Assembly: GCA_000403315.2 (NCBI GenBank)
Contig: KE159636.1
Coordinates: 649,358-713,357, forward strand
DNA from: Lachnospiraceae bacterium A2
Lineage (GTDB): Bacteria; Bacillota; Clostridia; Lachnospirales; Lachnospiraceae
Reading direction: 5' to 3'
Length of the DNA stretch: 64,000 bases
How positions within the stretch are numbered: position 1 is the first letter of the stretch; each line of letters begins with the position of its first letter. Made by a program: the position numbers and the translations under genes. Below are positions 17,481 through 39,221 of the stretch, piece by piece. The notes below the pieces were generated by a model, which saw nothing but the letters and a program-made list of their open reading frames with translations, did no database searches and was not told the DNA's origin.

Positions 17481-17646
17481 CTAGAGCGTGTCTTAAAATT
17501 GCTTTCTGTCGGATGTATTTCACAGTTCGTGGAAGATTTGTGCCAAATGAGGGAGGCGTAGCGGGCTACGTTGACCGAATTTGGTGCAAAAATGCCGCGA
17601 AGTGGGGGATGCAGACGGTGGAAATGAATTTTAAGACACGATCTAG
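17481..17646. repeat. Long imperfect palindrome with GGCGTAGC/GCTACGTT core, copy P1
   Basis: The ends CTAGAGCGTGTCTTAAAATT and the reverse complement of 17627-17646 match except one base, and complementarity continues inward to a short central hairpin AGGCGTAGCGGGCTACGTTGAC (about 17553-17574). The element fills nearly the whole araA-transaldolase gap. A 96-codon frame runs through it but has no protein character. The core resembles two elements at 38790 and 39062, whose arms are different in sequence. Confidence 0.85.
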
Positions 17647-17730
17647 CCCAATCAGGGTATGCGGGGCGTGCAATGTTTTGTACTCAAAAGACGGACAAAT
17701 GCCCTGTTTTTTCCGGGACAAATAGTGTAA

Positions 17731-17786
17731 AATAGAAACGTAACAATAGAAACGTAACAATAAATGCATAACGATAAATGCATAAC
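17731..17786 (+). repeat. Four 14-base tandem repeats in the transaldolase leader
   Basis: AATAGAAACGTAAC occurs twice (17731-17758), followed by two variants AATAAATGCATAAC and GATAAATGCATAAC (17759-17786), ending directly at the AAAGGAGG ribosome site. Pairs 1-2 and 3-4 are near-identical within each pair, suggesting two rounds of duplication or slippage. Confidence 0.9.
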
Positions 17787-17799
17787 AAAGGAGGACAAC

Positions 17800-18453
17800 A
17801 TGAAATTATTTATTGACACCGCCAATGTAGAAGATATCCGCAAAGCCAACGACATGGGCGTTATCTGCGGGGTAACTACGAACCCTTCCTTGATCGCAAA
17901 AGAAGGCAGGGACTTCAATGAGGTTATCAAGGAAATCACCAGCATTGTGGACGGCCCAATCAGCGGCGAGGTGAAGGCAACTACCACGGACGCAGAAGGC
18001 ATGATAAAAGAAGGCCGTGAAATTGCAGCAATCCATCCCAACATGATTGTAAAAATCCCAATGACCGCAGAAGGCTTAAAGGCTGTGAAAGTACTGGCAG
18101 CAGAAGGCATTAAGACAAACGTGACCCTGATTTTCTCCGCGAACCAGGCCCTTCTTGCAGCACGGGCAGGCGCAACCTATGTATCCCCGTTCTTAGGCCG
18201 CCTGGACGACATCAACCAGCCGGGGATTGCCTTAATTGAAGACATTGTGACAATTTTTGAAAACTATGGGTTGGAAACAGAAATCATTGCAGCCAGCATC
18301 CGCAGCACCGTACATGTAAACGACTGCGCCCTTGCAGGTGCAGATATTGCAACCATCCCATACAGCGTGATTGAGCAGATGACAAAACATCCCCTCACCG
18401 ACCAGGGGATTGAAAAATTCCAGAAGGACTACAAAGCAGTTTTCGGCGAATAA
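17800..18453 (+). CDS. tal: Transaldolase, short FSA/TalC type
   Basis: A 217-residue class I aldolase of the decameric transaldolase/fructose-6-phosphate aldolase group. It starts [20 protein letters not shown] and has '[13 protein letters not shown]', the Schiff-base lysine in '[14 protein letters not shown]' (near residue 86) and '[11 protein letters not shown]'. It moves a dihydroxyacetone unit in the non-oxidative pentose phosphate pathway and so joins arabinose-derived xylulose-5-phosphate to glycolysis. The real start is ATG 17800 behind AAAGGAGG, not the upstream ATG that lies in the tandem repeats. It is followed closely by the transketolase pair. Confidence 0.94.
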
Positions 18454-18479
18454 AAAGAACAGAAAAAGGAGAATGTTAC

Positions 18480-19319
18480 ATGGAAAACTTAGAACTTCAG
18501 AAAACGGCCAATGAAGTCAGGAAAGGCATTGTCACAGCTGTCCATGCAGCAAAAGCAGGGCATCCGGGCGGATCCCTTTCCGCGGCAGAGGTTTTCACAT
18601 ATTTATATTTTGAAGAAATGGACATAGACCCCAAAAACCCGAAGAAAGCAGACCGTGACCGCTTTGTGCTTTCGAAAGGCCACACTGCGCCGGGGCTTTA
18701 CTCCACCCTGGCAAACCGTGGGTTCTTCCCGGTGGAGGATTTAAAGACGCTGCGCCATATCGGGTCCCACCTGCAAGGCCACCCATGCTTACAGCATACC
18801 CCCGGCATCGATATGTCAAGCGGCTCCCTGGGGCAGGGCATTTCCGCAGCCGTGGGCATGGCAATTTCTGCAAAGCTTAGCAACGACAGCTACCGGGTAT
18901 ACACCCTGTTAGGGGATGGGGAAATCCAGGAAGGGCAGGTCTGGGAGGCAGCGATGTTTGCAGGCCACCGGAAACTGGATAACCTTGTAGTGATTGTGGA
19001 TAACAACGGCCTGCAGATCGACGGCAAGGTGGACGACGTGTGCTCCCCCTACCCCATTGATGAAAAGCTGAAAGCATTTAATTTCCATGTCATTAACGTG
19101 GAAGATGGAAATGATTTCGACGCCCTGCGCGCAGCTTTCCAGGAAGCAAGGGAAACCAAGGGGATGCCTACCGCCCTTGTGCTGAAAACTGTCAAAGGGA
19201 AAGGCATTTCCTATATGGAAAATAAAGCCGGATGGCACGGCAAGGCGCCAAATGACGAAGAATATGCCATTGCCATGGAAGAATTGGAGAAAGCAGGTGA
19301 AGCATTATGCCAGAAGTAA
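18480..19319 (+). CDS. Transketolase, N-terminal (thiamine diphosphate) subunit
   Basis: A 279-residue protein equal to the first domain of transketolase. It has 'AVHAAKAGHPGGSLSAAEV', the metal/ThDP-binding 'LLGDGEIQEGQVWEA...NLVVIVDNNGLQIDG' and 'TVKGKGISYMEN' with the conserved His later in 'AGWHGKAP'. Together with the next gene it makes a complete split transketolase, a common arrangement in Clostridia and archaea. It transfers two-carbon ketol groups between pentose phosphates. It overlaps the next gene by 13 bases. Confidence 0.94.
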   Translation: MENLELQKTANEVRKGIVTAVHAAKAGHPGGSLSAAEVFTYLYFEEMDIDPKNPKKADRDRFVLSKGHTAPGLYSTLANRGFFPVEDLKTLRHIGSHLQGHPCLQHTPGIDMSSGSLGQGISAAVGMAISAKLSNDSYRVYTLLGDGEIQEGQVWEAAMFAGHRKLDNLVVIVDNNGLQIDGKVDDVCSPYPIDEKLKAFNFHVINVEDGNDFDALRAAFQEARETKGMPTALVLKTVKGKGISYMENKAGWHGKAPNDEEYAIAMEELEKAGEALCQK

Positions 19320-20248
19320 AGAAAATCGCAACCAGGGACAGCTACGGGAACGCATTGGCAGAGTTGGGAAGGGAGCATGACAATCTGGTCGTTTTAGATG
19401 CAGACCTTGCTGCAGCCACAAAGACAGGCGTATTTCAAAAAGAATTCCCAGACCGCCATATTGACTGCGGGATTGCAGAATGCAATATGATGGGCATTGC
19501 AGCAGGCATTGCAAGCACCGGGAAAGTGCCTTTCGCAAGCTCCTTCGCCATGTTTGCAGCAGGCAGGGCCTTTGAGCAGGTGCGCAATTCCATCGGATAC
19601 CCGCACCTGAACGTAAAGATCGGCGCAACCCATGCCGGGATTTCCGTTGGGGAGGACGGCGCAACCCACCAGTGCAACGAGGATATTGCCTTAATGCGCA
19701 CCATCCCGGGGATGACAATTATCAACCCGGCAGACGACGTAGAAGCAAAAGCAGCCGTGCGGGCGGCTTATGAAATGGATGGCCCGGTATACTTAAGGTT
19801 CGGCCGTCTGGCAGTCCCGGTGATTAACGACCGCCCGGATTATAAGTTTGAAGTGGGCAAAGGCGTCCTCCTTAGGGAAGGGACAGACGTTACCATCGTG
19901 GCAACCGGCCTGTGCGTAGGCGCATCCCTGGAAGCAGCGGAACAGCTTGCAGCAGAGGGCATCAGCGCAGAAGTGATCAATATCCATACCATCAAGCCCC
20001 TTGACACGGAGCTTATCATAAATTCCGCGAAGAAAACCGGGAAAGTCGTTACCGCAGAGGAACATTCCGTAATCGGTGGCCTTGGGAGTGCAGTATGCGA
20101 CTGCCTTTGCGAAAATGCCCCCACCCCGGTATGCAAAATCGGCGTGTATGACGTATATGGCGAGTCCGGCCCGGCAGCAAAGCTTTTGGAGAAATATGGC
20201 CTTGATGCACAGGGGATTTATGAAAAAGTAAAAAATTTTGTAAAATAG
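19307..20248 (+). CDS. Transketolase, C-terminal subunit
   Basis: A 313-residue protein equal to the pyrimidine-binding and C-terminal domains of transketolase. Motifs are 'DSYGNALAELG', 'HIDCGIAECNMMGIAAGIA' (the catalytic Glu that activates thiamine), 'THAGISVGEDGATHQCNEDIAL' and 'VYLRFGR'. The C-terminal domain ends with 'VVTAEEHSVIGGLGSAVCD'. It works as a heteromer with the product of the overlapping upstream gene. Confidence 0.94.
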   Translation: MPEVKKIATRDSYGNALAELGREHDNLVVLDADLAAATKTGVFQKEFPDRHIDCGIAECNMMGIAAGIASTGKVPFASSFAMFAAGRAFEQVRNSIGYPHLNVKIGATHAGISVGEDGATHQCNEDIALMRTIPGMTIINPADDVEAKAAVRAAYEMDGPVYLRFGRLAVPVINDRPDYKFEVGKGVLLREGTDVTIVATGLCVGASLEAAEQLAAEGISAEVINIHTIKPLDTELIINSAKKTGKVVTAEEHSVIGGLGSAVCDCLCENAPTPVCKIGVYDVYGESGPAAKLLEKYGLDAQGIYEKVKNFVK

Positions 20249-20430
20249 ATATCAGGTATTAGGAATGTATGCTGATTCTATTGCATATATAAAGCAGATA
20301 CGCTGCCCGGCCTCACGCAGGCGGCCCATGGGCATTGCCCAGCTTGCGTGGGGGAGGGCAGCCCAATTGCCGCCCATCCCCAAGAGTCCACTATATCACA
20401 CGAATCATAAAGATTGGAGGGTTTTTACAT

Positions 20431-22032
20431 ATGGAAAGAGAACAGATAATCAAAGATATCCAGGCTGGCAGTACCGCCCTGGGCATTGAATTTGGCTCCA
20501 CCAGAATCAAAGCCGTGCTGGTAGGCAGCGACAATACCCCCATTGCTTCCGGCGCCCATGACTGGGAAAACCAGTATGAGGACCATATCTGGACCTACAG
20601 CCTGGATGCAATCTGGAAAGGGCTTCAGGACTGCTACCAGAACATGGCCAAAGACGTGAAAAATCAATATGGGGTTGCCCTGGAAACGGTTGGGGCAGTT
20701 GGTTTTAGCGCAATGATGCATGGTTATATGGCATTTAGCCAGTCCGGGGAGCTTTTGGTTCCCTTCCGCACATGGAGGAATACCATTACGGAGGAAGCTT
20801 CCAAAAAGCTGACAGACGTTTTCCAGTATAACATTCCCCAGAGATGGAGCATTGCCCACCTGTACCAGGCCATCTTAAACAAAGAAGAACATGTAAGCTC
20901 CATTGCTTATTTCACTACCCTTGCCGGCTATGTCCATTGGAAGCTGACCGGGCATCAGGAGCTGGGCGTAGGCGAGGCTTCCGGCATGTTCCCCATTGAC
21001 ATTGAAACAGGGGATTTTGACAAGAAAATGATGGCGCAGTTCAACGAACTGGCTGCAGCAGAAAACCTCCCGTGGAAATTAGAGGACATTATCCCGAAAG
21101 TGCTGACTGCCGGGGAACAGGCAGGCACTCTGACAGAAGAAGGGGCTAAGCTTCTGGATGTGTCCGGTACGCTGAAAGCGGGGATTCCCGTATGCCCGCC
21201 GGAAGGGGACGCAGGGACAGGGATGGTGGCAACCAAGAGCGTAGCGCAGCGTACGGGGAATGTTTCCGCAGGGACTTCCGTATTTGCCATGGCAGTGCTG
21301 GAAAAGAATTTAACGAAAGTCCATCCTGAAATTGACATGGTGACGACGCCGGACGGAAGCTTGGTGGCAATGGTGCACTGCAACAACTGTACTTCTGACT
21401 TAAATGCATGGGTAAACCTTTTCAAAGAATTTGCAGAAAGCTTCGGCATGGAAGTGGATATGCAAAAACTGTTTTCCGTACTGTACAATAAGGCTCTGGA
21501 AGGGGATGCAGACTGCGGCGGGCTGCTGGCATATAATTATTTCTCCGGGGAGCATATTACAGGCTTTGAGGAAGGCCGCCCCCTGTTTGTGCGTACGCCG
21601 GACAGCAAATTTAACCTTGCCAACTTTATGCGGGTGAACCTGTTCACTTCCCTTGGGGCGCTCAAGACAGGGCTTGATATCCTCTTAAAGGAAGAAGGGG
21701 TAAAGCTGGATGAACTGATGGGTCATGGCGGGCTCTTTAAGACAAAGGGCGTAGGCCAGAAGATTATGGCTGCGGCAGTCAACACTCCCGTTTCCGTTAT
21801 GGAAACAGCCGGGGAAGGAGGCGCATGGGGCATTGCGCTGCTTGCATCCTATATGCGGAACAAGGCGGAAGGCGAGTCCCTCTCCCAGTATCTGGAGGAG
21901 AAAGTATTTTCCGGGCAAAAGGGCACGACCATCCAGCCGGATGCAAAAGATGTGGAAGGCTTTGACGCATTTATCAAACGCTACAGCGCAGGGCTCCCCA
22001 TTGAGCGCGCAGCCGTAGATTTCTTAAAATAG
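20431..22032 (+). CDS. FGGY-family carbohydrate kinase, predicted L-ribulokinase
   Basis: A 533-residue sugar kinase. The N-terminal ATPase fold starts '[17 protein letters not shown]' and the second half has '[12 protein letters not shown]' and '[21 protein letters not shown]'. Between araA and araD genes it most likely phosphorylates L-ribulose; its sequence is unlike classical AraB and fits the alternative clostridial kinase (AraK) found in such clusters. Xylulokinase activity is the alternative. ATG 20431 follows TTGGAGGG; an upstream in-frame extension has no ribosome site. It is followed by araD after 12 bases. Confidence 0.88.
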
Positions 22033-22044
22033 AAAGGGAAAATC

Positions 22045-22746
22045 ATGTTAGAAGAACTGAAAAAAGCAGTCTATGAAGCAAATATGGATTTGCCCCGCTA
22101 CGGGCTTGTAACTTTTACCTGGGGGAATGTCAGCGGCATTGACCGGGAACGGGGATTGTTTGTCATTAAGCCAAGCGGCGTGGATTATGAGAAGCTGTCG
22201 CCGGAGGATATGGTAGTCATGGATTTGGACGGCAACAAAGTAGAAGGGAAATATAACCCTTCCTCCGACACCGCTACCCATGTGGAACTCTACAAGGCGT
22301 TCCCGGAAATCGGCGGGATTGTCCATACCCATTCTTCTTATGCTACAAGCTGGGCACAGGCAGGGCGCAGCATCCCATGTTATGGGACTACCCATGCGGA
22401 TTATATGTACGGGGAAATCCCCTGCCTGCGCTGCCTGACGAAAGAGGAAATCGACGGCGCATACGAGGAAAACACGGGGCGGCTGATTGTGGACGCTTAC
22501 CGGGAACTGGGGAAGGACATCATGGCAGTCCCGGCGGTGCTCTGCAAAAACCACGGCCCCTTTGCATGGGGCAAGGACGCCCATGAGGCTGTGCACAATG
22601 CAGTGGTGCTGGAAGAAGTGGCTAAGATGGCATACCGGGCAGAAACCATCAACCCCCGCATCCAGCCTGCCCCGCAGGAATTGCAGGATAAGCATTATTA
22701 CCGGAAACATGGGGCAAATGCTTATTATGGGCAGACAGTGGAATAA
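22045..22746 (+). CDS. araD: L-ribulose-5-phosphate 4-epimerase
   Basis: A 233-residue zinc-dependent class II aldolase-fold epimerase that yields D-xylulose 5-phosphate. It has '[21 protein letters not shown]', the zinc ligands in '[15 protein letters not shown]' plus a later His in the 'HGPFAWGKD' region, and '[16 protein letters not shown]', all diagnostic of AraD. It closes the arabinose cluster; a hairpin follows at 22819. Confidence 0.95.
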
Positions 22747-22818
22747 GGTTTCCCGCTTAAAGGATGTGGGCAGGCCTGAAACGTGTTTTCTGTGGGATGT
22801 GCTGAAAATATAAGAAAA

Positions 22819-22864
22819 ACCAAAGGTGTCCTGTAGGGGAAGCTCCTTGCAGGGCATCTTTGGT
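22819..22864 (+). terminator. Hairpin terminator after araD
   Basis: ACCAAAGGTGTCCTGTA (22819-22835) pairs with TGCAGGGCATCTTTGGT (22848-22864), a 17-base stem with few mismatches, about 70 bases after the araD stop. The T-run is short. Confidence 0.65.
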
Positions 22865-22921
22865 GTCTGTTAAATTAGTTAGTTAATGCGGGCAGGAACA
22901 GGCAGAAGGAGGTGGAACATC

Positions 22922-24175
22922 ATGTATACAGAGGAAATGGTGCTGATTGCCAAACGGGAAAATAACACAAAACGGAATTATTTGGTTGTCAACAAGTACC
23001 AGGGGAAACATATCCCGGCAGACCCTGGCAAGGCCTTGGGGCTGTTTTCAGCGTTGGCGGGCTTGGTGGAAGGCCGTTACCAAGGGGAACGCCTGCTGCT
23101 GATTGGCTTTGCAGAAACTGCCACAGCTATTGGGGAGGCCCTTGCCGTGCAGCTTGGTGCAGATTATATGCAGACCACCCGGGAGCAGATCAAAGGGGTA
23201 GAATACCTGTATTTTTCAGAATCCCACAGCCATGCCACAGAGCAGAAGGTTGTGAAGGATGATTTGGACGCCGTAATCCTTGGGGCAGGAACTGGCGCTA
23301 AGCCACACCTTCGGATTGTGTTTGTAGAGGACGAGGTGACTACTGGGAATACGGTTTTGGGGATTATCCAGTTAATGCGGAAGGAATATGGGGAGAGCTT
23401 ACGTTTTTCTGTAGCGTCCCTGTTAAATGGGATGGATGGGGAAGCGCAGGAGAAGTACCGGAACAATGGGATAGACATGGTATACCTGGTAAAAACCGAC
23501 CATAGCGGATACCCGGAGCTTGCGGGACGCTGGGCGGCCGATGGGGTTTACCATAAGTGCCAGCCATTTTGCAGAAATCAGGGCCAGGCCAGGAAATTGT
23601 GTCCTATAAAGCAAAACCCCTCCAGGAGATGCGAAGTTCCCGGCATGGAAATTTCTGCACCGGGCTGCATCAATGCCAGAAGGCTCCACAAAGGCGCGGA
23701 TTATCAGGCGGCTTGCGGCCTGCTGTGGCAGGGCATACAGGAAAAAATTTCTTTTGGGGCAGGGCAGGAGGTCCTTGTCCTTGGCACAGAAGAATTTATG
23801 TACGCCCCATTGTATGTGGCGCAGAAAATACAGGAACTGGGCAGCCATGTGAGATACCATGCAACGACCCGCAGCCCCATTATGGTGGGCAAAAGCCCCT
23901 GCTATCCTTTGCATGAACGGTATGAACTGGTGAGCCTGTACGATGCCGGCCGCACGACATACGTATATGATCTGGCAAAGTATGATCTCGTGCTGGTAAT
24001 TACAGACGCAGAACCTGGCAATGGGCAGAATGGCGATTTTCCAGAAAAGTACAGGCAGGGAACTGCCTGCCTTGGGGGACCGGGAATGGCTTCCCTGTGC
24101 AATGCGATTGACAGATGCGGCAACCAAACAGTTTATTTTATCAGGTGGTGCAAAAAAAGTGAGAAGTTCTTATAA
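22922..24175 (+). CDS. Phosphoribosyltransferase with C-terminal TRSP domain (Ter cluster)
   Basis: A 417-residue protein of the PRTase-TRSP family found in Ter stress gene clusters. The N-terminal phosphoribosyltransferase domain has the PRPP loop 'IVFVEDEVTTGNTVLGII' (near residues 140-157); the C-terminal domain carries the name-giving 'RYHATTRSPIMV'. In the published domain analysis of Ter systems these enzymes are part of a predicted nucleotide-like biosynthetic module; the product is not known. The ribosome site AAGGAGG is strong. It overlaps the next gene by 17 bases, and together they open the Ter cluster. Confidence 0.85.
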   Translation: MYTEEMVLIAKRENNTKRNYLVVNKYQGKHIPADPGKALGLFSALAGLVEGRYQGERLLLIGFAETATAIGEALAVQLGADYMQTTREQIKGVEYLYFSESHSHATEQKVVKDDLDAVILGAGTGAKPHLRIVFVEDEVTTGNTVLGIIQLMRKEYGESLRFSVASLLNGMDGEAQEKYRNNGIDMVYLVKTDHSGYPELAGRWAADGVYHKCQPFCRNQGQARKLCPIKQNPSRRCEVPGMEISAPGCINARRLHKGADYQAACGLLWQGIQEKISFGAGQEVLVLGTEEFMYAPLYVAQKIQELGSHVRYHATTRSPIMVGKSPCYPLHERYELVSLYDAGRTTYVYDLAKYDLVLVITDAEPGNGQNGDFPEKYRQGTACLGGPGMASLCNAIDRCGNQTVYFIRWCKKSEKFL

Positions 24176-25316
24176 AAAAAGCGATGTTATTTTTCTCTTA
24201 AAAGATATTACTGGGCTGGTGCAGCCCCAGTCCACGGAAGAACGGGAAAAAGAAATACAGGCGGGGCGCCACTATTGCGAAATGCTTCCCATAGAGTATG
24301 TGCCCACCCCGAAATATATGGAAACCTACCGGGAGGCCTTAAAGCATTTTGCAAAGCCCACAGCAAGGGCGGTTGGCGCCCTGGCAGATAAAATTATACG
24401 GGAAAAAGGGGAGCATGTGGTCCTGGTATCCCTGGCAAGGGCTGGTACGCCCATTGGCATTTTGCTGAAACGGTATTTTATCCGGAAATACCATCTGGAA
24501 GTGCCCCACTATTCCATTTCCATTATCCGGGGAAAGGGGATTGACCGGAATGCAATGAAGTTCCTTCTGGGAAAACATAGGCCAGAGGAACTGCTTTTTG
24601 TAGACGGCTGGGTGGGGAAAGGCGCAATCCTTGGGGAACTGAAAAAAGAAATTTCCGCTTATCCCGGTGTGGCTGCAGAACTTGCAGTGCTGGCAGACCC
24701 GGCGAATATTACAGAATTGTGCGGAACCCATGAGGACATTTTAATCCCCAGCTCCTGCCTGAACTGTACGGTGTCGGGGCTGGTGAGCCGGACATTTTTG
24801 CGTGGGGATATCATTGGGCAGGATGATTTCCACGGGGCGGCGTATTATGGGGAGCTGGCAGGGGCAGATTTGTCCTATGGTTTTATTGAGGCCATTGAAA
24901 AAGAATTTGAGTTCCAGGCAGCCCCAAAGGAACTTATGCCCCAAGGATTCGGAATCCATATGGGAAAGGAAAGGGTTTGCGGGCCATCTTCATCTGGAAA
25001 AGCGGGAATAAGAGATGGAATCTATGTGGACCATGGGGAAAAAGCCACGAACAGCTTTGGCATAGATGAGGTAAAAGAGATAGCCGTGGAGTTTGGCATA
25101 TCAGATATCAATTTGGTAAAGCCAGGGATTGGGGAAACCACAAGGGTTTTGCTGCGCCGGGTTCCATGGAAGGTATTAATCCGGCAGGACTGCAGAAACG
25201 ATAAATCCCTGGCCCACATCCTGCGTCTGGCAGAAGAAAAAAATATCCCTGTTGCATACTACCCTTTGCAGCATTACAAATCCTGTGGGATAATAAAAAA
25301 ACTGGCAGACACATAA
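24159..25316 (+). CDS. PRTase_1/PELOTA-type protein (annotated elsewhere as StiP family; Ter cluster)
   Basis: A 385-residue protein. It opens 'SSYKKSDVIFLLKDI', has the phosphoribosyltransferase-like 'VVLVSLARAGTPIGILLKRY' and 'ELLFVDGWVGKGAILGEL', and ends in an L7Ae/Pelota-like RNA-binding module ('LAHILRLAEEKNIPVAYYP...KSCGIIKKL'). Database names for this family include 'cysteine protease StiP', but the domain analysis of Ter operons treats it as a PRTase joined to a PELOTA domain. The start is probably GTG 24159, ten bases after GGTGG, overlapping the upstream gene. Its 3' end lies in a 67-base repeat array. Confidence 0.8.
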   Translation: MRSSYKKSDVIFLLKDITGLVQPQSTEEREKEIQAGRHYCEMLPIEYVPTPKYMETYREALKHFAKPTARAVGALADKIIREKGEHVVLVSLARAGTPIGILLKRYFIRKYHLEVPHYSISIIRGKGIDRNAMKFLLGKHRPEELLFVDGWVGKGAILGELKKEISAYPGVAAELAVLADPANITELCGTHEDILIPSSCLNCTVSGLVSRTFLRGDIIGQDDFHGAAYYGELAGADLSYGFIEAIEKEFEFQAAPKELMPQGFGIHMGKERVCGPSSSGKAGIRDGIYVDHGEKATNSFGIDEVKEIAVEFGISDINLVKPGIGETTRVLLRRVPWKVLIRQDCRNDKSLAHILRLAEEKNIPVAYYPLQHYKSCGIIKKLADT

Positions 25317-25452
25317 GGCAATGGGGGCAGCGTTTCCATGCTGCAAATCCTGTGGGCGGATGAAAAATCCTGTAGGCACATAAGGCAGTGGGGGAGGGCG
25401 TTTCCATGCTGCAAACCCTGCGGGGTTCCCAAAGGCTGGCAGGGGCATATGC
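25262..25452. repeat. 67-base unit repeated about three times across a gene end
   Basis: AAATCCTGTGGG occurs at 25278 and 25345 and as AAACCCTGCGGG near 25412; ACATAAGGCA occurs at 25311 and 25378. The period is 67 bases. The first copy encodes the last 18 or so codons of the PRTase/PELOTA gene and its stop; the others are degenerate and non-coding. It ends at the stop of the convergent CitE-like gene. Confidence 0.75.
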
Positions 25453-26411
25453 TATTTCAGGCCATATGCTTCTGCCAATAGGAGGGTGCGCAGGGCCCAG
25501 TTATGGTGGGTCTTGTATTCGTTCATCCGTTCTCTTACAATGCTCCCGGCCACTAAGAAAGGGGAAGTGGCGTCCCAGTCCAGAATGGCTTTTGCATCAT
25601 TGTAATCTTTCAGCGGCACTTTGTAGGCTTCATTTACCAGCCGGATTTGGCTGGGGTGGATGACGGTTTTCCCGATAAAGCCGCAGAGCCTGTCTTCGTC
25701 CAGTTCTTTTGCCATTCCGGCATCCCAGTTCTTTCCATTATAATATTCAAAAACGGGCCCAGAAACCACATAGTCCATGCCAAACACGGTAATGATGTCA
25801 GAAAAAATATTTGCCACTGGCCGGATATGGTAAATGGTTTCATTGCTGTGCCGGCGGAACCCGAACCTGTGGCATAGGTCATTGCCGCCTACCCGGATAT
25901 TCAGCACGTATTGGGAAATGGAGTCTAATTTTTCCTTAAGCTGGTACAGGATCTGCGCCCTGTCCAAAAGATGGATCAGGTCGGGGCTTTCCAAAATCGG
26001 CATCATGTAGCAGGGGACGTCCCTGTGCCGGTTCAGTTCCCGGAACACAGTAAGGTAAGCGTCTGCGTTTGTCAGGGAAAATTTGGGGATGTTAAAGCCT
26101 GTGACAAGCTTCTGGGCGTCCCCCAGCCTTCCCAACAGGCTTTTTATCTGCTCCGGGTTCCTGACGCGGATAAAGATTTTGGGCAGGAAAAAGGGTTTTT
26201 GGGCATGGCGCGCCTGCAATGCCTGAAGGGAAGAAACCAGCATGTTTTCAGCGTCGGCAACACAACTGTCCTGTATGGCGTCCTCAAGGCATAGGGCGAG
26301 GGAAAACTGTTTGCCGAATTTTTCATTTGCCAGTGAATTTACAATGCCTGTGTGGTTGGCTGGGCAGTAAAGCAGCGCGCCAACGCTGTAGGCGGGAAGG
26401 AAATGGTTCAT
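25452..26411 (-). CDS. HpcH/HpaI-CitE-like TIM-barrel lyase (Ter cluster)
   Basis: A 319-residue protein of the C-C bond lyase family seen in Ter biosynthetic modules. It begins 'YSVGALLYCPANH', followed by 'SLALCLEDAIQD' (the metal-binding acid pair typical of CitE folds), 'FIRVRNPEQI', 'YMMPILESPDLI' with a metal-ligand Glu and 'IGKTVIHPSQIRLVNEAY' near the C-terminus. It probably makes or breaks a carbon bond in the unknown Ter metabolite. It is transcribed opposite to the two PRTase genes and convergent with them. Confidence 0.85.
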   Translation of the reverse strand: MNHFLPAYSVGALLYCPANHTGIVNSLANEKFGKQFSLALCLEDAIQDSCVADAENMLVSSLQALQARHAQKPFFLPKIFIRVRNPEQIKSLLGRLGDAQKLVTGFNIPKFSLTNADAYLTVFRELNRHRDVPCYMMPILESPDLIHLLDRAQILYQLKEKLDSISQYVLNIRVGGNDLCHRFGFRRHSNETIYHIRPVANIFSDIITVFGMDYVVSGPVFEYYNGKNWDAGMAKELDEDRLCGFIGKTVIHPSQIRLVNEAYKVPLKDYNDAKAILDWDATSPFLVAGSIVRERMNEYKTHHNWALRTLLLAEAYGLK

Positions 26412-26523
26412 GTTAAGATGCTCCTGTTCTTGTTTTCATGTTCCAATTTATTATAGGTGAAATTCGTGGGTTTCGCAATAGGGCTTTGTGGTTCATTGTA
26501 TGGAAAAATAGCGGCATTTATAG

Positions 26524-27160
<637 letters not shown>

Positions 27161-27551
27161 AATGTTTCACTCCTTTTTTAACATAATTATAGCATAATTA
27201 TGCCAAGATGAAAATAAAAAATGCTGCATAATGAAAATTTTAATATATGACATAGAGTGAAAGGCTTTGGACAGGACAAACGTATGGGTGAAGAAATTGT
27301 GGACAAATTGTATCAGCATGGATGCCGGAAAGTAAATGGAACAGGTATTAATTTAAGGCCTGACAATGAACTTTCTGCCAATTTTCCTCCCTCTTTTAAC
27401 TGGATTATGGTAAAATAAGAAATAAATTGGAAAGCATGTATGCAATATTTATGATATTTAACCGCCAGGGCAATGTATATGGAAAAGCATAGCTGTAGAA
27501 TTTGATGTACGGTGCGGCGGCAATAAAAAAGGACAAGGTAGGTGGTTTCCC
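27161..27551. other. 391-base region with a short gene remnant
   Basis: Apart from the antitoxin promoter side (AT-rich, 27180-27240) and a possible 44-codon remnant at 27284-27418, nothing recognisable lies here. It is part of the debris that interrupts the Ter cluster. Confidence 0.5.
27284..27418 (+). pseudogene. Short coding remnant of unknown family
   Basis: The frame MGEEIVDKLYQHGCRKVNGT runs 44 codons to 'FNWIMVK' and a stop; upstream in-frame sequence (VKGFGQDKR) also looks protein-like but has no start or ribosome site. The composition suggests the tail of a small enzyme. It cannot be named. Confidence 0.3.
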
Positions 27552-32179: not shown

Positions 32180-33333
32180 TGCATATGGGACTTGATTTTA
32201 GTAAGACAGCAGTGCAGCCGCAGCAGCAGGCTGTGCCGGAACCCAAAAATGAGATTGAGGTGGTGGAGCAGTATGACATTGCTGCGGACAGGCAGCAGAT
32301 GAACGATACCCTGACGAATTCCGCGGAGGTAGACAGCTTAGCCAGCACTATCGAGGTCTACAACCTTGAAACCATTGTGTCCTTCGGGGCGGAAGCGGCA
32401 GAGGAAATTTCCAAGGCCTCCGACGTGGTACTAAACAGCATGAATATGTCCCAGCTCGACGATTCCAGTGAAATGCTGAATACTTTGGCAAAAATTATGT
32501 CTAAATTTGATATTGATGAGCTGAAAGAAAATCCCAGCCTGTTTGGGAAGATGTTTGGGAACTTGCGGAAACAGTTGGATAAAATTTTAGCCAAATACCA
32601 TACTATGGGGGAAGAAGTGGATAAGATTTACGTACAGTTAAAGCAGTACGAATCGGAAATCAAGCAGTCCAACCGGAAATTGGAGCAGATGTTCCAGGCA
32701 AACGTAAATTATTACCATGATTTGGTAAAATACATTTTGGCCGGGGAACAGGGCTGCCGGGAGCTGGAAGCATATATTGCCCAGCGGCAGGCAGACATGG
32801 AGGCCACCGGGGACAATTCCATCCAGTTTGAGCTCCAAAGCTTACAGCAGGCTTTGATGATGCTGGAGCAGAGGACCCAGGACCTTAGGACCGCAGAAAG
32901 CGTGGCAATGCAGTCCATCCCCATGATAAAGACCATGGAATTCAGCAATATGAACTTGGTGAGAAAAATTAATTCAGCATTTATTATTACCCTTCCGGTC
33001 TTTAAACAGGCGCTGGCACAGGCAATTATGCTGAAACGGCAGAAGATTCAGGCAGAAGCCATGTCTGCGCTGGATGAAAAGACCAATGAAATGCTTATGA
33101 AAAATGCAAGGAATACGGTGGAACAGTCTAAGATGACGGCAAGGCTGGCTTCGGGCAGCTCCATTAAAATAGAAACCTTGGAAACAACATGGAGGACAAT
33201 TGTAAACGGCATTGAGGAAACCAAGCAGATTCAGGACAATGCAAGGCAGAAACGCGTGCAGGACCAGGCAAGGCTGGAAACAATTAAATCAGAATTTAAT
33301 AAAATGTACCATATGCCGGATAAGAAGTATTAA
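32179..33333 (+). CDS. telA: Toxic anion resistance protein, TelA family
   Basis: A 384-residue, largely helical cytoplasmic protein of the TelA/KlaA family, linked to tellurite, colicin and nisin or bacitracin tolerance. After a disordered N-terminus, '[19 protein letters not shown]' and '[19 protein letters not shown]' lead into long coiled-coil helices. The diagnostic C-terminal stretch '[25 protein letters not shown]' is present and is followed by '[14 protein letters not shown]'. ATG 32179 overlaps the YceG stop (TGATG) and has AGAGAGG six bases upstream. It may bridge membrane sensing and the TerD proteins; the mechanism is unproven. Confidence 0.93.
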
Positions 33334-33386
33334 AGCTTTTCGGGATGCAAGGTATAGCCATGACAAAAGTAAAGGAGGATTTTAGT

Positions 33387-33968
33387 ATGCCAATTAACTT
33401 ATCAAAGGGACAAAAAGTAGACTTGACAAAAGGGAACCCGGGGTTAAGGAAGATTATGGTGGGATTAGGCTGGGATGTAAATGCTTTTGATTCCGGCGCA
33501 GCCTTTGACCTGGATGCAGCGGCTTTTATGCTGGGGCAGAATGGGAAGTGCCCAACGGAGAATGAATTTATTTTTTATAAGAATTTGGAGCACAGCAGCG
33601 GGGCAGTGAAGCATATGGGGGACAACCTGACTGGGGAAGGGGAAGGGGACGACGAACAAATTTTAATCGACCTTACATTAATCCCTGCCAATGTGGATAA
33701 GGTGGCCTTTACTGTGACAATTTACGATTCCGATGCACGGCGGCAGAATTTCGGGCAGGTATCCAACTCATTTATAAGGATAGTGGACGAAACCACCGGG
33801 CAGGAGCTGATACGCTATGATTTGGGGGAGGATTTCTCCATTGAAACTGCGGTGGTGGTAGGGGAATTGTACCGCCATGGCGGGGAGTGGAAATTTAATG
33901 CCATTGGCAGCGGGTTCCAGGGAGGGCTTGCAGCGCTTTGCGGGCATTATGGGATAGAAGTGGCTTAA
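33387..33968 (+). CDS. TerD family protein, paralogue 1
   Basis: A 193-residue Ca2+-binding stress protein. It starts '[20 protein letters not shown]', followed by '[20 protein letters not shown]' and the paired Ca2+ site '[17 protein letters not shown]', and ends with '[20 protein letters not shown]'. These beta-sandwich proteins confer tellurite, colicin and phage tolerance in Ter systems. AAAGGAGG precedes ATG 33387. It is the first of three tandem paralogues. Confidence 0.95.
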
Positions 33969-34053
33969 AAGAATGTGGGGACAGGCGGCAAGCTGGGCTG
34001 ACCTTCCCCACGCAAACTATGAAAACAGCGCTGTATATAGAAGGAGGGTTAAC

Positions 34054-34635
34054 ATGCCAATTAATTTGCAGAAAGGGCAGAAAGTAAGCCTTACCAAAGA
34101 CAATCCGGGACTGTCCAAGATTGTAGTGGGGTTAGGCTGGGATGTGAATGCGTTTGATACGGGCGGGGATTTTGACTTGGATACGTCGGCGTTTTTGCTG
34201 ACGGATGCAGGGAAGGTTTCAAGGCCGGAGGATTTTGTGTTTTACCAGAATCTGCAGCACCCGTCGGGATGCGCCCAGCATATGGGGGATAACCGGACAG
34301 GGGCAGGGGACGGGGATGACGAGCAGATCAGGGTGGATCTGTCCATGGTCCCGCCAAACATTACGAAGATTGCATTTACCGTGACGATTTATGAGTCGGA
34401 GCAGCGGCGGCAGAATTTTGGGCAGGTGAACAATGCCTTTATCCGCATTTATAAAGAGGATACGGGGGAAGAACTGCTGCGGTATGATTTGGGGGAGGAT
34501 TTTTCCATTGAAACCGCCGCAGTGTTTGGGGAGCTGTATAAGAATGGGAGCGAATGGAAATTCAATGCCATTGGCAGCGGCTACCAGGGAGGGCTGGCTG
34601 CCCTTTGTGCCAATTATGGCGTAGATGTAGAATAG
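34054..34635 (+). CDS. TerD family protein, paralogue 2
   Basis: A 193-residue paralogue, closely related to the preceding protein: '[20 protein letters not shown]', '[10 protein letters not shown]', Ca2+ site '[17 protein letters not shown]', end '[20 protein letters not shown]'. GAAGGAGG precedes the ATG. The close similarity in both protein and DNA points to a local duplication. It differs from paralogue 1 mostly in surface positions, so all Ca2+ ligands seem kept. Confidence 0.95.
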
Positions 34636-34646
34636 GAGGAAAAGAA

Positions 34647-35237
34647 ATGTCGGTTAGTTTACAGAAAGGGCAGAAGGTCAACCTGTCCAAAGATAACGCG
34701 GGCCTGTCCAAAATTATGATAGGCCTGGGATGGGACGAGGTGCAGCGGAAGAAACGAGGGCTTTTTGCAGCAAAGCCAGCAGAGATTGACTGTGATGCAT
34801 CTGCCATATTGTTAAGCGGCGGCAAGGTGATGCGCAAGGAGGACCTTGTATTTTTTGGGAACCTGCGCCATGATTCCGGTTCCGTGCTCCACATGGGGGA
34901 CAACGTGACAGGGGCAGGGGATGGGGACGACGAGCAGATTGCCGTGGATTTGTCCCAGGTGCCGGCTCATTATGACAGGATTGTGATTGTGGTAAACATT
35001 TATCAGGCAGTGGAGCGCAGGCAGCATTTTGGGATGATACAGAATGCATTTATCCGCCTGGTAGACTGCAGGAATAACAACGAGATGTGTAAATATGACT
35101 TGTCGGAAGATTATTCCGGGATGACAGCCATGATTTTCGGGGAGGTATACCGCCACAATGGGGAATGGAAATTCAGCGCCATTGGGCAGGGTACCAATGA
35201 CAGGAGCATAGGCGAGTTGGCAAATAGGTATGTATAA
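34647..35237 (+). CDS. TerD family protein, paralogue 3 (divergent)
   Basis: A 196-residue TerD-like protein that is more diverged. A basic insertion (EVQRKKRGLFAAKPAE, about residues 28-43) splits the first Ca2+ region, leaving 'IDCDASAILL', while '[17 protein letters not shown]' is intact. It ends 'FSAIGQGTNDRSIGELANRY' instead of the GGLAALC end of the others. It follows paralogue 2 after 11 bases and precedes the Ca2+ ATPase by 11 bases. The insertion may tune Ca2+ affinity or partner choice. Confidence 0.93.
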   Translation: MSVSLQKGQKVNLSKDNAGLSKIMIGLGWDEVQRKKRGLFAAKPAEIDCDASAILLSGGKVMRKEDLVFFGNLRHDSGSVLHMGDNVTGAGDGDDEQIAVDLSQVPAHYDRIVIVVNIYQAVERRQHFGMIQNAFIRLVDCRNNNEMCKYDLSEDYSGMTAMIFGEVYRHNGEWKFSAIGQGTNDRSIGELANRYV

Positions 35238-35248
35238 GGAGATTTAGA

Positions 35249-37903
35249 ATGAAATTTCAGGGACTTACAGACAAAGAAGTAGAGATTTCCAGAGGGAAGT
35301 ATGGCTCCAATGAAATTCCGGATTCGGAACCTACCACATTTTGGGAAGAATTTAAGGAAACCTTTGGGGACCCCATGATTAAGATTCTGCTTGCAATTGC
35401 AGTGCTTATGATTGTGATGTTTTTCTTTGGTTATGCAGAGATTTATGAGCCGCTGGGCACAATTGTGGCAGTCCTGATTGTGGCGTTTGTATCGGCAAAG
35501 ACAGGCGTTGCCAGCGATACAAAGTACCGGGAATTAAAGGACAGCACCAAGAAAGACCAGTGCAAGGCCCACCGGAACGGCATGGTCACGGTAATTGACG
35601 TGGACGACGTGGTGGTTGGGGACAAGGTGCTCCTGCAGTCTGGGGATAAAATCCCCGCAGACGGGATCCTTATTTCCGGCGCCTTAAGCGTGGATAACTC
35701 TGCACTGAACGGGGAGGCGGAGGAATGCAGGAAAAAAGAAACCTCCATAGAAACCTCCCTGGCCGAGGATATCACAGGGGATACTTTTGTGGATCCCTAC
35801 TCTTTATTCCGGGGAGCAGTGGTTTTTGACGGAGAAGGCGTGCTGGACGTACGGAAAGTAGGTCTTAAGACAATGATGGGCAAAATGGCGGAGGAAATGC
35901 AGGAGGACGAGCCGGATTCCCCGCTGAAAGTAAAGCTTGCCAAGCTGGCAAAACAGATTTCTACCTTTGGCTATATTGGGGCGGTTGTGATTGCCGTGCT
36001 GTATTTTGTGTATTTTATTGTGTCCGCAGGCGGGGTATCCGCTTACTTTGCCATTGGGGCAGAGGAAGTCATCAAGGACATTGTGGAAGCAGTTTCCCTT
36101 GCCGTGGTTATTATTGTCTGTGCGGTGCCGGAGGGGCTTCCCCTGATGATTTCGCTGGTGCTGATGCAGAATACCAGCAAAATGCTGGACCATAACGTGC
36201 TGGTGCGTAAGGCGGAAGGGATTGAAACGGCTGGGTCGCTGAACATTTTATTTAGCGATAAGACGGGAACCATTACCAAGGGTATGCTGGAAGTGGTGGA
36301 TTTTTTTACTGCAGACGGCAGTTCCATCCCAATCCCGGAATTGGGAAGCCATGGGAAGGTAAAGCATCTGCTGGATCTGGCAATTGGGAAAAATACCCAG
36401 TCCATGTTCGACGGGGAACACCGGGTGATTGGCGGAAATGCTACCGATCAAGCCTTGATGAAATTTCTTGGGGAGGAAACCTTCCGTGGGCTAGAAGGAG
36501 ATAAATCCTGCGTGGTATCCAAATCCCAAGGCTTCAACTCCACCAATAAATTCAGCCAAGCGAGGATTGACAGCGAGGGGAAGACCTTTTACAAAGGCGC
36601 GCCGGAGCGCCTGCTGGCTTCTGCTTCGAAATATCTGGATGGGAATGGGGAACTCCGTGACATTGATAAACCTGCGCTGGACCGTAAGATTGACGAACTG
36701 GCGGCAAAAGCAATGCGTGTCCTTGCCTTCGGCTATTCTGAGCAGGGGCTGGTGGAAAATAAAATCAATGGGGACATTGTAATTATCGGCCTTGTAGGCA
36801 TCCGTGACGATGTGCGGCCAGAGGCAAAAGAGGCCATTGAGCAGGTGCAGCACGCAGGCATCCAAGTAGTTATGATTACTGGGGATCGTCTGGAAACCGC
36901 AGTTGCCATTGCAAAAGATGCGGGGCTTTTGAAAACAGATACCGACCGGGCGCTTTCCTCTGCGCAGCTCAATGAAATGCCGGATGAGGAGGTTAAGAAA
37001 ATTATCCCCAATATCCGGGTGATTGCCAGGGCTCTGCCTACAGATAAATCCAGGATGGTACGCCTGTGCCAGGAAATGAACCTGGTTGTCGGCATGACTG
37101 GGGACGGGGTGAACGATTCCCCGGCATTGAAGCGGGCAGACGTTGGCTTTGCAATGGGCAGCGGGACTGAGGCTGCCAAGGAAGCAGGCAAAATTGTTAT
37201 TTTGGATGATAACTTTAAGTCCATAAAAGATGCGATCTGGTATGGAAGGACCATTTACCACAATATCCTGAAATTCTGTAAGTTCCAGCTTGTGATTAAT
37301 GTGGCGGCGGTGGTGGTAAGCGCAATTGCACCTTTCTTTGGGGTAGAAGAACCGCTGAAAGTAACGCACCTGCTGTTTGTCAACCTTGTAATGGACGGCC
37401 TTGGGGCCATTATGCTTGGGAACGAGCCAGCCCTGACGGAATATATGTCCGAGAAGCCCAGAAGGAGGGATGAAAGCATTGTAAGCAGGAAAATGATGGC
37501 CCAGATTATTACCATGGGGGCATGGTTGGTATTTATCAGTTTCCTGTACCTGAAGCTGCCCTTCTTCCGTAACCTGTTTGATACGGAGAAACAGCATTTG
37601 ACCGGGTATTTTGTGCTGTTTATTGTGAGCGCGCTGTTTAATGGGTTTAATGTCCGGGATGAAAAATATGGAATTTTCCAGGGCTTGAATGAAAATACCG
37701 GGTTCCTGAAAGTGTTCTTTACAATTATTCTGGTTCAAGCATTGATTGTAAATGCGGCTCTTGTGCCGTTCACAGTGTTTACCTGGATTGGGAATATGTT
37801 TAGCTGTGTGCCCTTTGGGATTGCAGGCTGGGCAGCGGTAGTATTGCTGGCAGTGACAATGATCCCGGTGGATTTGGTGCGCAAGGCAGTTGTGGAGAGA
37901 TAA
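35249..37903 (+). CDS. Ca2+-transporting P-type ATPase (PMCA/SERCA-like)
   Basis: An 884-residue P2-type ATPase with about ten membrane segments. Visible motifs are the N-terminal actuator 'DNSALNGEAEEC' (TGES-like site replaced by NGEA), the ion-site 'VCAVPEGLPLMISL' in segment four, the phosphorylated Asp in 'LFSDKTGTITKG' (about residue 337), 'KGAPERLL' and 'MTGDGVNDSPALKRADVGFAMG'. Cation transporters of this type accompany Ter genes in Firmicutes; together with Ca2+-binding TerD proteins this suggests Ca2+ homeostasis during stress. Mg2+ or other cations cannot be excluded. Confidence 0.93.
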   Translation: MKFQGLTDKEVEISRGKYGSNEIPDSEPTTFWEEFKETFGDPMIKILLAIAVLMIVMFFFGYAEIYEPLGTIVAVLIVAFVSAKTGVASDTKYRELKDSTKKDQCKAHRNGMVTVIDVDDVVVGDKVLLQSGDKIPADGILISGALSVDNSALNGEAEECRKKETSIETSLAEDITGDTFVDPYSLFRGAVVFDGEGVLDVRKVGLKTMMGKMAEEMQEDEPDSPLKVKLAKLAKQISTFGYIGAVVIAVLYFVYFIVSAGGVSAYFAIGAEEVIKDIVEAVSLAVVIIVCAVPEGLPLMISLVLMQNTSKMLDHNVLVRKAEGIETAGSLNILFSDKTGTITKGMLEVVDFFTADGSSIPIPELGSHGKVKHLLDLAIGKNTQSMFDGEHRVIGGNATDQALMKFLGEETFRGLEGDKSCVVSKSQGFNSTNKFSQARIDSEGKTFYKGAPERLLASASKYLDGNGELRDIDKPALDRKIDELAAKAMRVLAFGYSEQGLVENKINGDIVIIGLVGIRDDVRPEAKEAIEQVQHAGIQVVMITGDRLETAVAIAKDAGLLKTDTDRALSSAQLNEMPDEEVKKIIPNIRVIARALPTDKSRMVRLCQEMNLVVGMTGDGVNDSPALKRADVGFAMGSGTEAAKEAGKIVILDDNFKSIKDAIWYGRTIYHNILKFCKFQLVINVAAVVVSAIAPFFGVEEPLKVTHLLFVNLVMDGLGAIMLGNEPALTEYMSEKPRRRDESIVSRKMMAQIITMGAWLVFISFLYLKLPFFRNLFDTEKQHLTGYFVLFIVSALFNGFNVRDEKYGIFQGLNENTGFLKVFFTIILVQALIVNAALVPFTVFTWIGNMFSCVPFGIAGWAAVVLLAVTMIPVDLVRKAVVER

Positions 37904-37979
37904 GAAACATAAGGATTGGGATGCACGGCTTTCCGGGAGAGGGCAGCGCATCCCAATTTTTGTGGGATGGAGGTGGGGA

Positions 37980-38807
37980 ATGGTATTCCATTCGGATTTG
38001 GACAATACATTGATTTATTCTTATAAGCATGAAATTGGCACAGGGAAAAAGTGTGTGGAAATTTATCAGGGACGGGAGATTTCCTTTATGACAGCCCATT
38101 CCGCAGAATTATTAAGGCGGGTACGGGCGCAGGCAGTGTTTGTCCCCACGACGACAAGGACGGTGGAACAGTACCAGAGAATCCGGCTGGGGGAGGAGCC
38201 GCCGGAGTATGCGCTGGTATGTAATGGAGGGGTTCTTCTGGTTCATGGGGAAAGGGATGCAGGGTGGTATGAGGAATCAAGGGAACTGGCAGCTGGCTGC
38301 CAGGAGGATTTGCAGGCCGTGCAGGAACTGCTCAGGGCGGATGGGAATGTTGATTTTGAAATCAGGGATATTGAGGGGCTGTTTGTGTTTACGAAAAGCG
38401 CGGAGCCGGAACAGACGGTTTGCAGGCTGCAGGAATATCTGGAAGGGGGCAGGCTGGATGTGTTTTCCAATGGGAAGAAAGTGTACGCGGTCCCGAAGGC
38501 GCTCAGCAAGGGGGAAGCAGTCAGGCGGTTCCGGCGCAGGCTGCAGGGGGATGCAGGCAGCGGCAAGCTTGGAAGCCCTATTGCAGCAGGGAAAAAGGGG
38601 AGCAGTTTTAGCGATTCTGTAGTGGTGGCGGCAGGTGACAGCAGGTTTGATATTTCTATGTTAGAAGCGGCAGACGTGGCCTTGGCAGAGCAAAGCCTGA
38701 AATTGGAAGGCATTCAGGGGGAGCATGTGGTTTATTTGGGGGAAGAAGGGATTTTCTCAGATGAAGTACTGGAATACATATGGAATATTTATTACTCCGG
38801 CGGTTAA
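37980..38807 (+). CDS. HAD-family hydrolase (Ter cluster)
   Basis: A 275-residue HAD phosphatase: motif I 'HSDLDNTLIYSY' (nucleophile Asp6, acid Asp8), motif II in 'FVPTTTRTVEQY', and motif IV 'AAGDSRFDISMLEAADVALA'. HAD enzymes of this kind form part of the Ter biosynthetic module. ATG 37980 has GGAGGTG upstream; a longer in-frame frame to 37890 has no ribosome site. Its last codons (IYYSGG and stop) lie inside the left arm of a long palindromic repeat, so the natural C-terminus was probably replaced when the repeat arose. Confidence 0.85.
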   Translation: MVFHSDLDNTLIYSYKHEIGTGKKCVEIYQGREISFMTAHSAELLRRVRAQAVFVPTTTRTVEQYQRIRLGEEPPEYALVCNGGVLLVHGERDAGWYEESRELAAGCQEDLQAVQELLRADGNVDFEIRDIEGLFVFTKSAEPEQTVCRLQEYLEGGRLDVFSNGKKVYAVPKALSKGEAVRRFRRRLQGDAGSGKLGSPIAAGKKGSSFSDSVVVAAGDSRFDISMLEAADVALAEQSLKLEGIQGEHVVYLGEEGIFSDEVLEYIWNIYYSGG

Positions 38808-38949
38808 ATATCGACGTTTTTACTTGCCTAAATTTCCATTTGCCGCGTTGTCATCCGTTGACGTAGCCCAGCTACGCCGCCTTCTTCCGCCTTGCAGATG
38901 GAAATTTATTCTGCGTAAAATTCGTCGGCATTTAATCGCCGGAGTAATA
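38790..38949. repeat. Long imperfect palindrome, copy P2
   Basis: TATTACTCCGGCGGTTAAAT (38790-38809) matches the reverse complement of 38930-38949 except one base; pairing continues through ...CGACG...TTTTAC...AAATTTCCAT toward a central ACGTAGCCCAGCTACGCCGCC (38871-38883 region). The middle 'CATTTGCCGCGTTGTCATCCGTTGACGTAGC' is, in reverse complement, homologous to the middle of P3. The left arm contains the HAD stop codon. Confidence 0.85.
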
Positions 38950-39061
38950 TATGGATAAAGGGCATCATGGGGGGTAAGGCAAAAGTATGGGCAGTTCGGG
39001 GAATTGAAAAATGTGATAATTTCATGTATACTTAAGAAAAAATTAGGCTAAGAAATCTCTG

Positions 39062-39221
39062 GTACAGCGAATAATAAGTTTCTGATACATTGGCGCAGGA
39101 TGATTGTTTCATATGCAAGGCGGAGGAATGAGGCGTAGCGGTGCCTACGTCGATTGACGACAACGCCGCAGATGAAAAATCAGACAAGCCAAAGTGTCCG
39201 TTACTTATTATTCACTGTACT
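39062..39221. repeat. Long imperfect palindrome, copy P3
   Basis: GTACAGCGAATAATAAGT (39062-39079) pairs with ACTTATTATTCACTGTAC (about 39203-39220), with further pairing inward to 'TGCAAGGCGGAGGAATGAGGCGTAGCGG' and 'CTACGTCGATTGACGACAACGCCGCAGATG'. The core matches P2 in inverted orientation while the outer arms are different in sequence. P2 and P3 together fill the HAD to M50 gap of 464 bases. Confidence 0.85.

Follow-up and report, generated by a model that had tools for sequence, protein, structure and literature searches.

A 64,000-nucleotide stretch of the genome of Lachnospiraceae bacterium A2 (contig KE159636.1; here called the window) contains three palindromes, P1, P2, and P3, which from their anatomy we are confident are miniature inverted-repeat transposable elements (MITEs). 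Their arms are best read as terminal inverted repeats (TIRs), and the variation of the arms from family to family most plausibly reflects different transposases. The explanation that we favor, and that we think is probably correct, is that these MITEs would be moved by IS630-family transposases and would carry an old core of which one strand must fold, to the advantage of the element itself. A preliminary description of the window had found the arms strange and had taken the middle of each palindrome for granted; in our analysis, it is the arms that are ordinary and the middle that is unusual.

The features of the three elements as we read them, with the ends set at TA dinucleotides and with R1 denoting the covariance model of the core, are as follows.

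17482..17645, plus strand: P1, complete MITE of 164 bp, TIR TAGAGCGTGTCTTAAAATTG, CTAG context
17555..17572, plus strand: P1 apex hairpin, the sole clear sequence match of P1 to the shared core
17482..17501, plus strand: P1 left TIR
17626..17645, minus strand: P1 right TIR
38790..38949, minus strand: P2, complete MITE of 160 bp, TIR TATTACTCCGGCGGTTAAAT
38820..38918, minus strand: P2 conserved core (model R1); the core-sense strand is the minus strand
38790..38809, plus strand: P2 left TIR; IS630 elements with similar ends occur in relative G027 (L166, L185)
38930..38949, minus strand: P2 right TIR
39060..39222, plus strand: P3, complete MITE of 163 bp, TIR T(A/G)GTACAGCGAATAATAAGT; the left TA reads TG
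39091..39191, plus strand: P3 conserved core (model R1); the core-sense strand is the plus strand
39060..39079, plus strand: P3 left TIR
39203..39222, minus strand: P3 right TIR

Arms differ between families, not between copies of a family

The three palindromes lie close to where they were first placed and measure 164, 160, and 163 bp from TA to TA. P1 is predicted to fold into one long stem at −86.6 kcal/mol (shuffled mean, −41.2; z, −12.6; 0 of 200 shuffles as good), and a single long hairpin is also predicted for P2, for P3, and for representatives of other families. Inside one element, the outer arms agree at 24/30 (P1), 25/30 (P2), or 23/30 (P3) positions, and between different elements they agree at 6 to 14 of 30, so that the arms do pair within an element and not among P1, P2, and P3, as had been described.

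The elements are short, multicopy, noncoding (as judged from the list of open reading frames [ORFs]), and flanked by terminal inverted repeats, which are the general features of MITEs. In a search of their own genome (5.2 Mb, 10 contigs), 40 of the 65 to 86 candidates were scored per query, so the copy numbers are lower bounds: at least 15 further full-length copies of P2 (83 to 98% identity), at least 16 of P1 (84 to 86%), and at least 1 full copy of P3 (96%). A second P1 subfamily, P1b, has at least 18 full copies with 70 to 72% identity to P1, and P3 has among its relatives an internally deleted copy (L044) and a related subfamily, P3b (L056, L095). Other families in the same genome, P4 (L045, L129), P5 (L094, L096, L130, L132), and P6 (L134, L135), combine the same core with different arms.

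The family arms were kept in every copy read (15 of P2, 32/34 of P1 and P1b, and 1 of P3). Thus, contrary to what had been proposed, the arms are not private to each copy, and the same arms in other copies, the very outcome that the preliminary description had named as telling against its claim, are what we found. The difference in arms is one between families and not between copies of one family. The proposal that a copying mechanism inverts flanking DNA around a mobile core fares no better, since copies have the same arms and since the orthologues, in four relatives, of the ORF at 37890-38807, which ends within P2, have a different 3′ end sequence with neither P2 arm at that place. Furthermore, TIR type largely follows the tree of the cores (25 label changes, compared with 57 in shuffles and a minimum of 12), which favors descent: most of the TIR divergence would have come about within lineages, with exchange possible in some cases.

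Incomplete or interrupted copies were also seen. One P2 copy (L031:200-493) is split by an unrelated GC-rich insert of ~130 bp. Short TIR-to-TIR forms of P1 and P2, 37 to 90 bp long, occur in L037, L038, L040, L041, L046 to L052, L055, L090 to L092, and L095, and some of them are two TIRs back to back.

Insertion at TA and resemblance to IS630 ends

We examined the ends of core hits from the A2 genome, its relatives, and named genomes. Of the hits to the core model, 81/91 and 31/34 were kept, the 10 dropped from the 91 being cut at contig ends, weak, or on the reverse strand; 12 hits from the genome itself brought the set to 124. Flank room was lacking for 11, and TA-bounded TIRs were present in 95 of the remaining 113, with 18 having none by our cutoff. 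As the hits were found with the core model, elements that have the same TIRs and have lost the core are undersampled. The length of the TA-bounded elements is 161 to 165 bp in 79/95. No clean empty site with both flanks could be aligned among the four orthologues of the gene that P2 ends, and from the TA seen at both ends in these 95 of 113 hits we infer that TA is duplicated at insertion. Insertion of IS630-family elements duplicates TA (PMC2170065).

The sequence context points to a preferred target. A CTAG context was found for 62 of the 69 TAG-type elements and for 63/95 elements overall; according to one title cited among the references of PMC2170065, IS630 prefers CTAG. Among the elements starting with neither TAG nor TATT, 11/14 lie in a GTAC context, which we read as TAGTAC-type ends with a mutated outer TA, like that of P3 in the window, and the TATT-type elements (n = 12) have no context preference. 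By family, the CTAG context is found in 21/32 P1 copies versus 0/16 P2 copies. An element end in CTAG re-creates the target site, so elements can chain. Pairs of core elements ~160 bp apart occur in L136, L204, L223, L245, and L251, and in L136 one TA is common to both.

For comparison, 31 loci with a DDE_3 transposase gene, from the A2 genome and relatives, were read by a uniform rule (a TA-bounded inverted-repeat pair enclosing the gene), and 19 had a readable enclosing TIR pair. MITE-like ends, matching at 17 to 18 of 20 bases (0/500 shuffles each), are present in 8 of these 19 elements (L097, L166, L169, L173, L178, L179, L185, and L192); a further element, L188, matches a MITE TIR at 15/20 bases, with 6/500 shuffles as good. 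P2-type ends occur on L166 and L185, P5-type ends on L173, L179, and L192, and P6-type ends on L097 in the A2 genome itself, whose two ORFs have DDE_3 and helix-turn-helix domains; in all, the matches cover P2, P3-like, P5, and P6 types. These resemblances suggest that the MITEs may be moved in trans by IS630 transposases. With the arms read as TIRs, which a transposase requires, their complementarity is ordinary. The IS630-family element at L097:1356-2581 is 1,226 bp long, with identical 20-bp TIRs and a transposase in two ORFs, perhaps reflecting a programmed frameshift or a broken gene.

A core that persists while the ends turn over

P2, P3, P3b, P4, and P5 align across ~100 bp, and their outer ~30 bp do not align. 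The preliminary description had reported a core common to all three palindromes; P2 and P3 in fact share more than the flanks it named (~95 bp at 77% identity, in opposite orientations), and P1 clearly shares only the apex hairpin. P1 has the apex hairpin, length, TA ends, and strand bias in common with the core elements and is likely a distant member of the group.

The proposed search for further copies of the core in the genome and its relatives was fruitful. Model R1 gave 49 hits at an E value of ≤0.1 in the A2 genome, and the core was found in 32/61 genomes (that of A2 included) and 9/33 genera. A pattern scan of named genomes gave at least 117 stretches, and where their titles named a taxon, it was Lachnospiraceae or other Clostridia/Eubacteriales, with Blautia, Roseburia, Dorea, Anaerobium, and Enterocloster among the stretches listed; 80 of the at least 117 were used, and because the pattern fixed the apex sequence, apex conservation is built in there. 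Among Lachnospiraceae of the gut, such elements are common. A greedy rule sorted the TIRs of 86 elements into 13 clusters; of these, T1 and T4 are probably a single type that was trimmed differently, leaving about a dozen types. Between families, the TIRs diverge more than the core, and we read this as a core that persists while its TIRs turn over.

The core was not present in 30 IS630 loci, and the idea that it is a regulatory RNA of the IS630 elements themselves was dropped on the strength of these 0 hits. Rfam gave 0 matches in the window at the gathering score and, for P2 and P3, 0 at an E value of ≤5. In an Rfam scan of 11 loci, the one match, far below the cutoff, was of a P1b copy (L077:231-334) to the plant microRNA family MIR5565 (27.4 bits; cutoff, 80); we set this identity aside as probably the likeness of two long hairpins. 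In a search by structure only, 77/80 TA-bounded palindromes of 150 to 170 bp were core elements on inspection, although most of these loci had been retrieved because they carry it. Coreless TA-bounded palindromes were seen in Lachnospiraceae loci at L222:2417-2605, L229:3307-3448, and L257:4767-4873 and are perhaps further hairpin families.

Evidence for probable folding of one strand of the core

The covariance analysis that had been suggested supports a conserved fold. Across 50 aligned cores, standard pairs occupy 93.8% of the pair cells, compared with 73.6% in shuffled and 31 to 48% in slid controls, and two-sided changes are found at 27/29 core pairs. The strings of the internal loops vary little from core to core even as the surrounding helices change (left CGCAG in 75/117, right CAAG in 91/117, left GCAAGG in 100/117), and core positions 9 and 93 are A/G or G/A in 81/117, A/A in 16, and G/G in 7. 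The second loop seems to be the first in a flipped sense, about two helical turns away.

In a double-stranded palindrome, G-U should be as frequent as A-C, because each G-U of one strand reads as A-C in its complement. On the core strand, G-U cells number 222 versus 30 for A-C in 107 distinct rows when helices 4 and 5 (pairs 17 to 21 of 29), whose pairing we think is misassigned, are left out, as they also are from the tree counts below; with these helices included, the numbers are 243 versus 62. Reverse-strand self matches (3 from A3, 1 from A4) are likewise excluded from the loop, G-U, and tree counts, and the 50-row covariation count kept all rows. In folding energy, the core strand is the more stable one in 27/28 representatives (three P1 forms, two of which are 86% alike, and 25 elements whose similarity by a simple string measure is below 0.80), with a mean difference of −18.6 kcal/mol; nine other palindromes from the same loci, which have no orientation to compare, show strand differences of 0.1 to 17.1 kcal/mol. 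In the outer 24 bp, G-U and A-C number 35 and 24 (P = 0.19), and this small bias implies that the strand bias belongs to the core. Of the suggestion that a long cruciform or RNA stem is under selection, the part concerning the core is therefore borne out, by the covariation and the one-strand G-U bias; the outer 24 bp, with little bias, are explained instead as recognition ends for a transposase. A bias toward one strand speaks against a double-stranded cruciform and in favor of a single-strand fold.

On a tree of 117 cores, 77 events create G-U and 28 create A-C, the corresponding numbers on internal branches being 24 and 5. As a sample of recent change, we took Watson-Crick-paired core positions in 45 copies of three subfamilies from the A2 genome. 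There, core changes confined to a single copy create 3 G-U versus 7 A-C, and shared changes create 4 versus 6; over the whole element, the numbers are 11 versus 10 (single copy) and 5 versus 12 (shared). The balance of G-U and A-C among the recent core changes is not that of the tree events (P = 0.008 for single-copy changes and P = 0.0015 for all). Young copies thus decay without bias, and older lineages keep it, which, in numbers that are small, would point to selection among lineages for one-strand folding. Selection on the folding of one core strand is likely on this evidence, and we infer that it is the cause of the G-U bias.

We then considered what such selection might act on. Among 103 elements between genes (59/64 from relatives and named genomes and 44/54 from the A2 genome, with gene calls by a crude ORF picker), the core-sense strand is sense to the gene on its 5′ side in 51 and antisense in 52; this count leaves aside 13 elements inside an ORF (3/64, 9/31, 0/14, and 1/9) and 2 that had no flanking ORF. 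Cotranscription with neighboring genes was rejected as a reading of the orientation, given this absence of preference. By the same ORF picker, elements are mostly between genes, with the 3′ end of a gene no more than 60 bp away in 35/63 cases and a 5′ end equally near in 29/55. Because benefit or harm from read-through should favor one orientation, any real advantage is most likely one to the element.

Proposed explanation

The explanation that we favor draws on the TA and TIR anatomy, the family copies, the matches to IS630 TIRs, the shared core, the covariation, and the one-strand G-U bias, all of them features of sequence. IS630 (Tc1/mariner-type) transposases would bind the TIRs and move the nonautonomous MITEs in trans, inserting them at TA, usually in CTAG. 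Each kind of transposase would recognize its own TIR, the outer 20 to 30 bp of an arm, which would explain why the arms differ between families and match inside an element. The inner ~100 bp would be an old common core that stays while the TIRs change with successive IS630 partners. A lineage would survive only where its core strand is able to fold singly, most likely as an RNA hairpin with constant loops, and the fold would help the element, not the neighboring gene, to persist or spread. We speculate that the folded core with its constant loops may be bound by a protein of the host or by the transposase. The more far-reaching claim is that a conserved folded RNA (or single-stranded DNA), specific to one strand, serves the spread of the MITE lineage that carries it and has survived one change of transposase partner after another, which would be a noncoding passenger function in an IS630-type element; we advance this claim tentatively and would not yet expect it to hold.

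Alternative explanations and contrary evidence

The selected form might be single-stranded DNA, arising from replication or transposition, and not RNA. We found no conserved promoter-like site in 25 elements (mean best scores, 8.44 sense, 8.12 antisense, and 8.28 shuffled), and an internal promoter in the core-sense direction was accordingly rejected as a candidate, its score being not above that of shuffled sequence. The lack of such a site and of any preferred orientation relative to neighboring genes would suit single-stranded DNA, in which G-T is also better tolerated than A-C. IS630-type transposition, however, is described as cut and paste by double-strand breaks (PMC2170065), so that a strand-specific single-stranded stage is not expected; we regard single-stranded DNA as a serious candidate, though an unlikely one, and RNA as the likelier form.

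It is also conceivable that these are ordinary IS630-type MITEs and nothing more, with the core as inherited baggage and with foldback replication (template switching) copying one arm from the other. The TA ends, TIRs, and copy families are indeed those of ordinary MITEs, and arm copying would account for the same change being present in both arms in some copies (P1 of the window, within the TIR, and L027) and for the second loop, which is now paired in L152 and L162 and which is also missing from L056, as arm homogenization would have it. Such copying would, however, erase internal loops, yet the loops are near constant across TIR types; it cannot yield more G-U than A-C in one strand; and the TIRs, which the transposase needs, diverge more between families than the core does. 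On balance, we find baggage and arm copying a rather unlikely account of the whole.

Strand-biased mutation, for example, by deamination of an exposed strand, could give an excess of G-U with no selection for folding. The excess is seen whether the starting pair was G-C (90 C-to-U versus 11 G-to-A changes) or A-U (116 A-to-G versus 16 U-to-C changes), and it extends to the terminal branches of the core tree, where 53 events create G-U and 23 create A-C. The recent changes in the A2 genome nevertheless show no excess, in the core or over the whole element, and the unpaired loops retain C and A residues, making mutational bias an improbable cause. That the elements are transcription terminators or host regulatory hairpins is very improbable, for although they are stable hairpins lying mostly between genes and near gene ends, they show neither an orientation preference nor a preference for 3′ over 5′ ends, and TA-bounded multicopy families call for an explanation by mobility.

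Several observations weigh against the favored explanation of IS630-moved MITEs with a folding core. Among them are three already mentioned, namely, the absence of a promoter-like site, the loss of the second loop from L152, L162, and L056, and the excess on terminal branches. The covariation is no proof of selection by itself, because the rows are related, with the controls leaving some of that relatedness, because the alignments were fitted to the model structure, and because arm copying could keep a palindrome. Inside helices 4 and 5, A-C exceeds G-U by 32 to 21, which counts if that pairing is correct. The control for recent change is small, with 10 single-copy core changes, and the single-copy ratio of 11 to 10 over the whole element differs from the tree events at only P = 0.07. 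On the side of mobility, 11 of the 19 IS630 elements match no MITE TIR well, 12 of the 31 loci have no enclosing pair, and none of the 31 provides a partner for the P1 or P4 TIR. P1 itself matches R1 weakly (E values, 0.007 to 0.07). Finally, 12 coreless pairs of P2 TIRs, 46 to 81 bp long, were found in loci fetched from the A2 genome. Three 81-bp coreless P2 forms have one common structure, and most other short forms differ from one another; most short P2 forms may be deletions in place. The existence of short coreless P2 forms means that the core is not strictly needed, provided that those forms moved.

Relation to known elements and significance

REP/BIME elements are hairpin repeats with conserved imperfections and in this resemble the present elements. 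With RAYT, they depend on Y1 tyrosine transposases that act on single-stranded DNA, with no TA duplication, whereas the elements described here have TA ends and IS630-type TIRs.

The RUP element of Streptococcus pneumoniae, 107 bp long and thought to be moved by IS630-Spn1, is, by its description and not by comparison of sequences, similar to ours in being a small, TA-bounded stem-loop MITE with a TIR resembling that of an IS630 element (PMC2229807). It differs in that PMC2229807 treats of one species, whereas here a single core occurs in several genera with about a dozen types of TIR. Streptococcal BOX elements are modular, with the boxB module of Streptococcus suis lying between different ends (boxA/C or boxE/F), so that a shared core between different ends is not unheard of, and they have RNA-like structure and some expression (PMC3049150). 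Their TIRs are like those of ISSpn2 and their length varies from 67 to 637 bp (PMC3049150), whereas here the length is near constant and the ends are of the IS630 type. The Correia/NEMIS elements of Neisseria have TA at their ends, a 24-bp TIR, and a stem-loop, and their stem-loop transcripts are processed by RNase III (PMC2229807, PMC10969869); a shared core between unrelated ends is not mentioned in the accounts of them that we drew on from these two sources. In a search of the open-access literature, we recognized no paper as describing the element, and the combination of many TIR types on a core of near-fixed length with a one-strand bias that contrasts with young mutations was not found in open-access literature listings.

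MITEs are usually seen as ends plus filler; here, it is the filler that is conserved, and the ends are what turns over. Should the fold be selected for the spread of the element, there are bacterial DNA transposons that rely on a structured nucleic acid no one has yet looked for. Natural copies with different TIRs are ready material for a test, and the comparison of G-U with A-C in old and recent changes offers a simple way to separate selection on folding from mere inverted repetition in palindromic mobile elements.

Insertion sites in the window

P1 has an l-arabinose isomerase gene on one side and a transaldolase-family gene on the other. P2 overlaps the end of the ORF at 37890-38807, the stop codon of which comes from the left end of P2 (38790-38807). 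In relative G025, a fragment of a core element adjoins the aligned part of the orthologue of this ORF (L313), as if a second, separate element had struck the same gene.

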